A stretch of 64,000 nucleotides of DNA from Acidimicrobiia bacterium (GTDB lineage: Bacteria > Actinomycetota > Acidimicrobiia > Spongiisociales > Spongiisociaceae): positions 1 through 64,000 of the forward strand of contig VXMM01000048.1 in NCBI GenBank assembly GCA_009841105.1, given 5' to 3'. This document shows, piece after piece, positions 47,631 to 51,684 of this stretch. The position numbers and the translations under genes are program-made. How positions within the stretch are numbered: the first letter of the stretch is position 1; the number at the start of each line of letters is the position of its first letter. The notes under the pieces are model-generated. The model saw only the letters and a list, made by a program, of their open reading frames with translations. It was not told the origin of the DNA and ran no database searches.

Positions 47631-49247
47631 TCAGGCGAGCAGGTACTCCCGGGCCACGACACGGGCCTCGTCCCGAGTCTCCACAATCCGATCGGCGGGT
47701 ACTCCCCGCAGGACGTCCAGCGCCTCCAATGTCCTGGCCACCGGGTCCGGCAGCGCCATCATCACGCATGCGGTGTCGGATCTGGAAGCAACCTCGATAA
47801 GCTGCTCGATCATCATTGCGGCACTGTCGTCGATGTAGGTCGTATCCGAGAAGTCGAAGATGACGACCTCATGGTCTCCGATCTCGGCTCCGATGACGCT
47901 AACCAGCTTGTTGGCCGACGATACGGTGAAGCTACCCCTTAGAGCCACCATGCCGACCCGGGCAGAGAACCTATCAGTGGTTCCCAACTCGCTGTCCTCG
48001 CCGAAGAAGGTCCGGTCGAGCAGCGGCACCGAGATGACGCTGTCCAACTCCAGGCGTTCCAGCTGGCGGGCATGCGCCAGACCGCCGGCGATCAAGCCGA
48101 TCGCCACCGCGGTGATCAGGTCCACCGAGACGGTCAGGACCAGCGTCACCAACATGACAACCAGGTGCTGGGAACGCAAGCGGTGGATCCGGACCAGCAG
48201 GCGCCGGTCCATGATGTCCCAGCCGACCTTCATCAGCACCCCCGCCAGCGCAGCCAACGGGATGGGCTCTGCAAACCTCCCCAGTCCGAGAACCACGGCC
48301 AGCACGAGCAGGGCTCTCAGCGCGCCGGACGCCCGGGTCGTCCCGCCGGAGCGGATGTTGATGACCGTCCCCATGGTTGCCCCGGCGCCCGGCAGCGCCC
48401 CGAACAGCCCGGCAACCATGTTGCCGATTCCCTGACCGATCAGTTCCCGGTCGGGGTTGTGCCTCTGGCCCGTGAGTGAATCAGCCACCAGCGATGTCAG
48501 CAAGCTGTCAACCGAGCCCAGGAGGGCCAGGATCAGCGCCGGCTGGAGAGCGGTCACCAGGAATCCGGCGGCCGGCATCTCCCACACCAGGCCCGGCAGC
48601 CCGGTCGGGATCTCACCGATCACCGGCGCGTCCGAGAGCCACAGGACACCCAGCAGGGTCCCGGTGATCAGCGCCACGAGAGGTCCGGGCGCGTAGCGAG
48701 ACAGCCGCCGCGGCCAGAGGAATCCGACCACCAGCGTTACGACTGCGATGGCCAACGCGCTCGTGTTGGCGTTGCTTAGCGCGTCGGGCAGGGCCCGGAG
48801 CGCTCCGATGACTCCTCCGGAGGCGGAGTCCGCTCCGAGAAACGGCATTATCTGGAGGACGATGACGATGACACCGATGCCCGACATGAAGCCGGACACC
48901 ACCACATGGGGCGTATAGGCGACGAACCGACCGATCCTCGACAGGCCCAGCAGGACCTGGAGCAGCCCGGCTAGCAGGACGACTGTCAGCGCTTCGGGGA
49001 GCGTGTCGGCATGGGTGGTGAGAACCACGGCCATCGCCACCGCCATCGGCGCGGTCGGGCCGGAGATCTGGGAGCGCGTCCCGCCGAAGACCGCGGCGAA
49101 GAACCCCACCGCGATCGCGCCGTAGAGCCCGGCGGCCGCCCCCATGCCCGAGGCGATGCCGAATCCCAGTGACACCGGCAACGCCACCACCATGGAGGTG
49201 AGCCCGCCGAAGAAGTCGCCCCGAAGGGTATCGAGATCGTACTTCAC
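47631..49247 (-). CDS. SulP-family anion transporter
   Basis: A 538-residue SulP transporter. The membrane part (residues about 10-400) shows SMVVALPVSLGFGIASGMG and GTRSQISGPTAPMAVAMAVV, a family signature. The C-terminal STAS domain reads MVALRGSFTVSSANKLVSVI and VVIFDFSDTTYIDDSAAMMI. It overlaps the upstream carbonic anhydrase gene by four bases if GTG 49247 is used (GTGA); GTG 49253 is possible. Pairing SulP with carbonic anhydrase is a known arrangement that points to bicarbonate rather than sulphate, as in cyanobacterial BicA. That is inference from context. Confidence 0.88.
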   Translation of the reverse strand: MKYDLDTLRGDFFGGLTSMVVALPVSLGFGIASGMGAAAGLYGAIAVGFFAAVFGGTRSQISGPTAPMAVAMAVVLTTHADTLPEALTVVLLAGLLQVLLGLSRIGRFVAYTPHVVVSGFMSGIGVIVIVLQIMPFLGADSASGGVIGALRALPDALSNANTSALAIAVVTLVVGFLWPRRLSRYAPGPLVALITGTLLGVLWLSDAPVIGEIPTGLPGLVWEMPAAGFLVTALQPALILALLGSVDSLLTSLVADSLTGQRHNPDRELIGQGIGNMVAGLFGALPGAGATMGTVINIRSGGTTRASGALRALLVLAVVLGLGRFAEPIPLAALAGVLMKVGWDIMDRRLLVRIHRLRSQHLVVMLVTLVLTVSVDLITAVAIGLIAGGLAHARQLERLELDSVISVPLLDRTFFGEDSELGTTDRFSARVGMVALRGSFTVSSANKLVSVIGAEIGDHEVVIFDFSDTTYIDDSAAMMIEQLIEVASRSDTACVMMALPDPVARTLEALDVLRGVPADRIVETRDEARVVAREYLLA

Positions 49248-49867
49248 TGCCACCGCCCACTGTCCAGCACCAGACCGCCGAGGCCGGTTTGCCGGCATAG
49301 CCGCTCCAGACGGCCATCGTCGATGCGGTAGATCAGGCCATGAACCTCAAGGTCCGCGCCGGCACGCCAGGCGTCGCACACGATGTCGGTGGCCGCGACC
49401 TTGCGCACCTGTTCGATCACGCTCAACTCGCACAACCTCTGCCACAGAGCATCGCCCTGTAGCTTCGCCAGGTCTGATCGGTGGGTGCGCACCACCGGGA
49501 GGAGATTATCGAGCCACTCCCCTAGTGGGCCGGTGGCATGCTCGTCCAGGAATGCGTCCACGCCACCGCAACCGTAGTGTCCGCAGACCACCACGCGGCG
49601 CACCCTGAGCGTCTCCACCGCGAATTGCAGCACCGCGAGAAGGCTGGGGTCCGACGGGACGACCAGGTTGGCAACATTGCGGTGAACGAACACTTCCCCC
49701 AGTGACAGGTCCATGATCAGGTTGGGTGACACCCGGCTGTCGGAACACCCGATCCAGAGCATCTCCGGTTGCTGCCCCCGAGCAAGGAGGCGGAACACAT
49801 CCGGGTCAGCCCGAGTCTGCCGTTCCGCCCAGGCGCGGTTCCGTTCGAGTATGTAATCGATGTCGAT
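49244..49867 (-). CDS. Beta-carbonic anhydrase, ATC start
   Basis: A zinc enzyme interconverting carbon dioxide and bicarbonate. Zinc ligands are Cys in LWIGCSDSRVSPN and His/Cys in VVVCGHYGCGGVDAFL; the Asp-Arg dyad is also there. The first canonical start, GTG 49798, would remove a conserved N-terminal helix. Reading further upstream in frame gives IDIDYILERNRAWAERQTRA, the normal start of this family, and the first codon ATC (49867-49865) sits eight bases after GGGGAGG. There is no ATG, GTG or TTG between the in-frame TGA at 49960-49958 and GTG 49798. I therefore infer an ATC start and 207 residues. It is translationally coupled to the SulP gene. Confidence 0.82.
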   Translation of the reverse strand: MDIDYILERNRAWAERQTRADPDVFRLLARGQQPEMLWIGCSDSRVSPNLIMDLSLGEVFVHRNVANLVVPSDPSLLAVLQFAVETLRVRRVVVCGHYGCGGVDAFLDEHATGPLGEWLDNLLPVVRTHRSDLAKLQGDALWQRLCELSVIEQVRKVAATDIVCDAWRAGADLEVHGLIYRIDDGRLERLCRQTGLGGLVLDSGRWQ

Positions 49868-50097
49868 GAGGACGACCTCCCCAGCCGACCCGGAATCGTA
49901 ACCAACCCGGCCACGCCCTCCGACCAGAACCCGGCCGTCGAACCTGACCAGGCTGGTTCACCGCCTGTCGCTTCGTCACCCAACGTTCCCAGTACCCGTC
50001 CTCAAGCGGGACAGTCGCAGCATGCATAGGGTTGGTAGAGAATCGCTAACCCGCGGGTCGGCGGCGTCCCGCGAGGTCGGGTAGTCCATCATGTACC

Positions 50098-51684
50098 ATG
50101 AGCCTGGTGGAGGCCACCGACACGGATGCCTGCGACATCATCGACCAGATCGAGCGCATGGCGCTAGGCATGGTCGGTCCTGCCTTCAGGGGCCAAGCCG
50201 ATGCTAGCTGGCCTCTGCGTTCGGGAGCGGTCCACCGTCTCGTCGAGACACACGGTGAGTCTGTCTTGAGCGATGAGGGCTATCTCAAGCAGTTGCTGTC
50301 TGGCTATCACCGCGACATCAGCAGAAGAGCTGAGATTATTGAGGGAGCGCAAATGACGCCCCTGCAGAGGCTGTCCGTTCTCCAGCATTTCGGCGCAGGG
50401 ACCGGACTCTTGGATTTCACCCGCAGCGCTTTGGTTGCGCTCTGGTTTGCTTGTGACGGTGAACCCCATAGCGACGGCAGGGTGTTCGCCTTGGACATCG
50501 CAAATCCCCTGGTTGCCGTCGATGGTCGAGGACTCGATTCTGAAGGACTATTCGACACAGGCCAGGCAGTGTATTACGAGCCCGACCGATCGCTGGGGGC
50601 GCGGATCGTCGCGCAGCAAAGCGTTTTCGTGATCTGCAACCCACCACCGATCCTCGATCAGCATGTGCCGTATGTCGACGTGCCAGCGCAATCCAAGATG
50701 CCGATCCAGGAGCGACTGGAACGCCTCGGGCTGTCTCGCGAATCACTGTTCTGTGATCTGCCGGGGTTGGCGCGTGCAAACAGCAGAACCCGTCCGCTCC
50801 TGATGGACTGGCTGACGCCTGAAGAGCACCTACGGCTGGGAACCCATGCCTACCGGATGCAAAGGTACGCGGATGCCCTCGCGAGCTACGAGTCCTATGC
50901 TTCTGCGTATCCCGATGTGGCCCAGTCACACTGTTTGATCGGCGACGCGTATTCCGCGATGGGGCGGTTTGACGAGGCGTCGACCGCCTACACGCGCGCC
51001 ATCGAGAACATTGATCGGCCGATGCCCCAGCTAGAAGGGTCCACGCCCACGCAAGAGTTCAAGGATTGGATGCTGCGACCGATCTACTACAACCGCGGCA
51101 ACGCGCATGCCGCGGTCGGGAGACACTCAGAGGCGATTGCAGACTTTGACCGATCCCTAGCTCTTGAGAAGTCCTCGGCTCTTGACTCCGGGGACGGGCG
51201 AAATGTGCTGTTCAACCGCGGAAACTCGAAGTACGCGCGGGGACGCTTCCAAGAAGCCTCACGGGACTTCGAGGAAGCATGGTCGCTACGCGAAACAAGC
51301 GACGCCGCGCTTGCCCTCGGAAACACCAAGATGCATCTCGGAGAGTTCGCCGAAGCCTTGATTCGGTACCACGACGGCGCGAACCTTGAGAAGCCCGAGA
51401 GTGCGGACGCGCCGTGTCGTACGAATGCCAAGCAATGCAGCGACCTTCTTGAAGCCTTGGCTGGGCATGATTTTGCAGTGCGGCCCAGCGAACGAAGCGA
51501 CGTAATTGTGACCGTGGAAGCACCGTTATCTGGACCAGGGGGCTTTGTGTTCGTCGGCAATCGGGGCAATGTCGGCAACACCCCTTCGGGCATGGTGGGT
51601 GCGCCGGGCGGGGAAGGTTATGGCGGGATGGCTGGCTTCGCGGTACTGCTGCGACCGGCACAGGGGCAAGCGGCAGGCCGGTAG
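50098..51684 (+). CDS. FRG-domain/TPR/Gly-rich protein
   Basis: A 528-residue three-part protein. Residues about 10-215 are an FRG domain: PAFRGQADASWPLRSGAV carries the naming Phe-Arg-Gly, and LSVLQHFGAGTGLLDFTRSA with ALWFACDGEP is the second conserved block. Residues about 240-430 are TPR repeats (RLGTHAYRMQRYADALASYE, IYYNRGNAHAAVGRHSEAIA, LFNRGNSKYARGRFQEASRD). The last 50 residues are a Gly-rich tail (GNRGNVGNTPSGMVGAPGGE). FRG domains have no established activity and occur often near defence genes. Codon use and GC are lower than in core genes. It is monocistronic, at the left border of an accessory island. A role in defence is inference. Confidence 0.8.
   Translation: MSLVEATDTDACDIIDQIERMALGMVGPAFRGQADASWPLRSGAVHRLVETHGESVLSDEGYLKQLLSGYHRDISRRAEIIEGAQMTPLQRLSVLQHFGAGTGLLDFTRSALVALWFACDGEPHSDGRVFALDIANPLVAVDGRGLDSEGLFDTGQAVYYEPDRSLGARIVAQQSVFVICNPPPILDQHVPYVDVPAQSKMPIQERLERLGLSRESLFCDLPGLARANSRTRPLLMDWLTPEEHLRLGTHAYRMQRYADALASYESYASAYPDVAQSHCLIGDAYSAMGRFDEASTAYTRAIENIDRPMPQLEGSTPTQEFKDWMLRPIYYNRGNAHAAVGRHSEAIADFDRSLALEKSSALDSGDGRNVLFNRGNSKYARGRFQEASRDFEEAWSLRETSDAALALGNTKMHLGEFAEALIRYHDGANLEKPESADAPCRTNAKQCSDLLEALAGHDFAVRPSERSDVIVTVEAPLSGPGGFVFVGNRGNVGNTPSGMVGAPGGEGYGGMAGFAVLLRPAQGQAAGR

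Follow-up and report, generated by a model that had tools for sequence, protein, structure and literature searches.

Which codon starts a carbonic anhydrase gene whose conserved N-terminal region is encoded in frame without any ATG, GTG or TTG? The question is raised by a β-carbonic anhydrase gene in the window, by which we mean the whole 64,000-nucleotide stretch of Acidimicrobiia DNA that was analysed. The coding sequence occupies positions 49244–49867 on the reverse strand and, read from an ATC, encodes 207 amino acids. The gene is single-copy in its own genome; the protein matches Pro_CA (PF00484; E = 1.1e-47, 162.6 bits against a cut-off of 25.7), and its residues 2–190 align with residues 3–191 of E. 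coli Can (YadF, PDB 1i6o), which belongs to the same family and has a similar length. Residues C41, D43, H97 and C100 are invariant across seven sequences, and correspond to the Cys-Asp-His-Cys zinc ligands of the Can-type β-carbonic anhydrases. The closest NCBIfam model, the PRK10437 equivalog for E. coli carbonate dehydratase, scores 179.2 bits and thus lies under its cut-off of 251. The gene is predicted to encode a functional Can-type β-carbonic anhydrase. E. coli Can begins at Met1 through an ATG, whereas the gene studied here has an ATC and the alignment begins at residue 2. The 22 codons past the ATC align with anhydrases of solved structure, E. coli Can among them, and codons 2–23 evolve as protein, with a pN/pS of 0.33.

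The anhydrase frame is open from a TGA located 93 nt upstream of the ATC through the TGA at 49244, and contains no ATG, GTG or TTG between the upstream stop and a GTG at 49798. The proposed start codon ATC (49865–49867, reverse strand) lies 8 nt behind the Shine-Dalgarno sequence GGGGAGG (49876–49882, reverse strand), exactly as placed in the preliminary description. When the 47 predicted genes of the window were ranked by coding signal ahead of the first canonical start, the anhydrase came second, after a gene at the window edge. The comparison set for the genus comprised the own genome and nine congeners (G001–G009), the relatives being metagenome-assembled Acidimicrobiia whose sponge association was read from isolate names. 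The gene is present in seven of these nine and absent from G002 and G005; one carrier, G009, is a more distant congener (59% identity) and makes up an eighth genome, while the start is readable in seven close congeners, namely the own genome, G001, G003, G004, G006, G007 and G008. All seven share the sequence GGAGG-TCGTCCTC-ATC-GAC-AT, and the start block GGAGGTCGTCCTCATCGACAT is identical in every one of them. These seven genomes contain no in-frame canonical start from -57 to +66 and lack ATG in every reading frame between -45 and +66, which agrees with the earlier claim that the conserved N-terminal region is encoded without a canonical start; in G009, a TTG stands one codon upstream of the ATC position. 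In the seven genomes, the ATC alone among near-cognate codons is suitably placed.

The ten columns 5' of the ATC include no variable site in six genomes, compared with 23 of 45 fourfold sites that vary within the gene. Genes of the own genome with canonical starts and a GGAGG show gaps of 3–14 nt, with 3 of 27 at 8 nt, so the ATC stands at a normal Shine-Dalgarno distance while a canonical start is unusable, as in genes with AUH starts. The own assembly contains no 16S gene, which was sought for a check of the anti-Shine-Dalgarno sequence. Isoleucine is mostly encoded by ATC here (47 of the 54 Ile codons of the anhydrase gene in six genomes), so that conservation of the ATC alone is weak evidence, and the start region is so highly conserved overall that it could hold an unrecognised signal. 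Further upstream, the DNA beyond about -60 is not common to the congeners, a promoter scan found nothing, and a TACGAT at 49895–49900 on the reverse strand (TACCAT in G003 and G006) may be a -10 element. A divergent gene with FRG-domain and TPR features (50098–51684, forward strand) adjoins the anhydrase. From the frame, its conservation and the shared Shine-Dalgarno sequence, the best reading is a true near-cognate start, with initiation at the AUC itself, in a lineage tolerant of such starts; the identical block in all seven congeners supports the ATC start put forward in the preliminary description.

The anhydrase is followed by a SulP-family (BicA-like) transporter gene (47631–49247, reverse strand; PF00916 and STAS) with a proposed GTG start at 49247. 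The anhydrase stop and the transporter start overlap as GTGA in the own genome, and as GTGA or ATGA in all six complete congener pairs, in line with the operon suggested earlier. Since the overlap recurs in all six pairs, SulP is probably translated partly by the same ribosomes, that is, by translational coupling to the anhydrase, and the ATC probably limits both proteins. The arrangement resembles pairs of a carbonic anhydrase and an adjacent SulP bicarbonate transporter of the BicA type, with shared SulP and STAS domains, although here the transporter start overlaps the anhydrase stop; the best NCBIfam model is BicA (NF050096), but its 484 bits fall below the curated cut-off of 880, which leaves the substrate unproved. 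In G002 and G005, the SulP transporter stands alone with a GTG start. Additionally, a second SulP paralogue with 53% identity (6623–8233 of contig C58 in the own genome) occurs in all ten genus genomes.

We also scanned a sample of 489,728 bases (~490 kb) of the own genome, including the window, in which 383 predicted genes were examined for coding signal ahead of the first canonical codon. Besides the anhydrase, four candidates hold up, namely gmk, priA, xerD and sthA. In the own genome, the CTG starts of gmk and priA overlap the stops of mihF and metK, respectively, each as CTGA, with mihF and metK named from sequence features; xerD begins at a CTG, and sthA at an ATT behind AAAGGA. In the ten genomes, gmk has CTG in nine and ATA in G009 (overlap ATAG), while priA has CTG in all ten, six of which carry a GTG 17 codons further in. 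One codon of xerD reads CTG in the own genome, G002, G005, G006 and G007, ATC in G003, and ATG in G001 and G008; an upstream GTG is also present in G006 and G007, and the region differs in G004 and G009. The non-canonical starts of gmk, priA and xerD are thus each common to several genomes. For sthA, the ATT is found in the own genome and an ATG at the same codon in all nine others, and this single-genome ATT could be an error. At one locus of the own genome (L095, position 12989 and the priA start), the CTGA overlaps of mihF-gmk and metK-priA are conserved in the genus, and termination-reinitiation at the CTG is possible. Two further frames were rejected as cases of a missing start. The SelD frame (L118, contig C50, 4355–5350, forward strand) opens straight after a TGA, as MSEIRLTSFSPGGG-TGA-ASKLG, and a peroxiredoxin/Bcp-like frame (L104, contig C8, 12591–12911, reverse strand) reads MTRG-TGA-TRQSC, its TGA sitting at the usual position of the active-site Cys. 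Because these frames follow a TGA that is preceded by matching sequence, both are probable selenoproteins. An ArsP-like permease (L105), an ambiguous case, was left out of the candidate count.

With the anhydrase excluded, the candidates amount to 4 of 382 own genes, against 0 of 205 in G110 and 0 of 313 in G161, two control genomes of the class (0 of 518 together; Fisher p = 0.03). This difference is marginal and only a hint, since the candidates were picked by eye from the highest-ranked genes of each list, the G+C content of G110 is lower and short cases, infC for instance, escape the scan. The gene model for G161 was seeded from the own genome. For reference, CUG accounts for 0.024% of bacterial initiation codons in one published figure (PMC11497404). 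Reports on this lineage were absent from the open-access literature that we searched. That the genus uses several near-cognate starts is an added finding, less certain than the anhydrase case. We give even odds to a relaxation of start-codon selection in the genus, and perhaps more widely in the class, with AUC, AUU, AUA and CUG serving as routine starts in ~1% or more of genes, housekeeping ones such as gmk, priA and infC included.

All 31 genomes examined contain infC. Of the 30 loci fetched, 29 have an ATC start, the own genome among them, and that of G016 has an ATT; G028 additionally carries an in-frame ATG six bases upstream, tight against the Shine-Dalgarno sequence. An ATGTAA, a start followed by a stop, occurs just 5' of the infC ATC in eight genus genomes (own locus L034, contig C59). 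The infC comparison drawn in the preliminary description therefore fits unusually well, as the own infC itself begins at ATC. In E. coli, infC has an AUU start through which IF3 regulates its own synthesis. Like E. coli infC and its counterparts in other bacteria, the anhydrase has a non-canonical AUH codon behind a Shine-Dalgarno sequence that is conserved among relatives; infC, however, encodes an initiation factor with feedback, whereas the anhydrase is a metabolic enzyme without a feedback loop of its own. A dedicated switch of the E. coli infC kind, in which the ATC makes the levels of anhydrase and transporter depend on IF3, would have the anhydrase gene and the own infC respond alike, and is consistent with the retention of the ATC in seven species and with the general discrimination of IF3 against AUC (PMC4611024). 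No second shared element was found, however: the 21-nt start block has its exact match solely at the anhydrase gene, with three-mismatch matches occurring elsewhere. Moreover, the unrelated housekeeping genes gmk, priA, xerD and sthA also lack canonical starts, which points to tolerance: the lineage may simply put up with an ATC start, which would then be no dedicated sensor. The link to initiation factor status that had been proposed earlier is therefore not borne out for IF3 in particular; we consider such a switch doubtful, and IF3-specific regulation of the anhydrase operon possible.

Changes in the initiation machinery itself were also considered. An unusual initiator tRNA was rejected, as the anticodon stem-loop is canonical in the own genome and eight congeners; an exact match is absent in G009, and ARAGORN called a CAT tRNA at the initiator stem-loop in both exact matches tested, those of the own genome and of G001. 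In the IF3 comparison, for which 16 of 20 chosen sequences were alignable, the genus differs at several sites, but the His to Arg change in the C-domain also occurs in further families of its order. Because this change extends beyond the genus, an IF3 variant was rejected and no cause is claimed from IF3.

An RNA hairpin at 49862–49889 (reverse strand) could instead mask the start and open conditionally, so that the conserved sequence would serve the hairpin and not the codon. The candidate pairs the Shine-Dalgarno sequence as well as the ATC, folds with -14.6 kcal/mol on 30 nt (z -2.8), and is exact in five of the seven genomes. This 30-nt stretch, however, was picked by eye as a self-complementary block, and with longer flanks z is only -0.5 to -0.7, so that excess stability is absent. 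Covariation does not support the fold either, as compensatory changes are absent and two of three arm substitutions break pairs. We regard a hairpin of this kind as unlikely.

Among start positions, the main rival to the ATC is the CTC one codon ahead of it (49868–49870, reverse strand), which is invariant in all seven close congeners, with a gap of 5 nt to the GGAGG. The more distant G009 has its TTG at this position, three of five distant homologues have a GTG aligned with it, and since residue 3 of E. coli Can corresponds to residue 2 here, the Met1 of Can falls on the CTC. The homologue starts, however, spread from -9 to +9 nt around the ATC point: the remaining two of the five show an ATG at -9 and only a GTG at +9, respectively, and outside the genus, where 395 genomes of the class gave 13 further matches with the start read in seven, the four closest homologues have ATG at -9, -9, -6 and +3. 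Because of this scatter, the alignment leaves the start codon unfixed. Two of the three bases of CTC are unlike those of ATG, none of the other genes examined here starts at CTC, infC uses ATC, and the bacterial start triplets listed in a passage of PMC4611024 include AUC and not CTC. A start at the CTC is accordingly improbable.

Other entries were rejected outright. The only upstream in-frame near-cognates of the own genome are CTG codons at -60 and -84, neither of which is conserved, and a TTG at -38 in the +1 frame, a possible entry from another frame, is missing in G001. The first in-frame canonical codon, GTG at 49796–49798 (reverse strand), is GTG in two genomes, CTG in G003, G006, G007 and G008, and ATG in G004. 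Although the window comes from a single metagenome-assembled genome and annotation rules would pick the GTG at 49798, a normal ATG hidden by faulty sequencing or assembly or by pseudogene formation, or a start at that GTG, is very unlikely. Short of an error common to all of them, the seven genomes with the same start sequence refute a hidden ATG; the codon at 49798 varies, and a protein starting there would lose a part that is under purifying selection. Both objections that the preliminary description had raised against an ATC start therefore fail.

We thus return to the start at AUC 49867, and place at roughly 80% the reading in which this Can-type anhydrase start is inherited in the genus, probably moderates output together with the flow onto SulP, and forms part of a wider habit. 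The strong GGGGAGG would place the ribosome at the AUC, which the ordinary initiator fMet-tRNA would read. Output from a near-cognate AUC start is probably lower than from AUG. The inherited start would probably keep anhydrase output moderate and, via the stop-start overlap, probably also set the ribosome flow onto SulP; sensitivity of the AUC start to IF3 may be expected as well. The anhydrase AUC would then be one case of a lineage habit in which AUC, AUU, AUA and CUG start several housekeeping genes, including infC.

Near-cognate initiation is a known phenomenon, to which the anhydrase adds another instance. To our knowledge, conserved non-canonical starts beyond infC and pcnB are rarely documented. 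Proteogenomics of Deinococcus deserti reportedly revealed non-canonical starts, ATC and other near-cognates, in ordinary genes; those starts rest on peptides, whereas the evidence here is comparative. In the present genus, a metabolic gene keeps its AUC across seven species, alongside an infC that likewise starts at AUC in those genomes. Under relaxed start-codon selection, standard gene finders would truncate or miss such proteins. A genuine wider habit would mean that many N-termini of these symbionts are wrongly annotated by automatic methods, and the genus would then offer natural pairs for testing how far the identity of the start codon matters, such as ATT versus ATG in sthA, and CTG, ATC and ATG in xerD.
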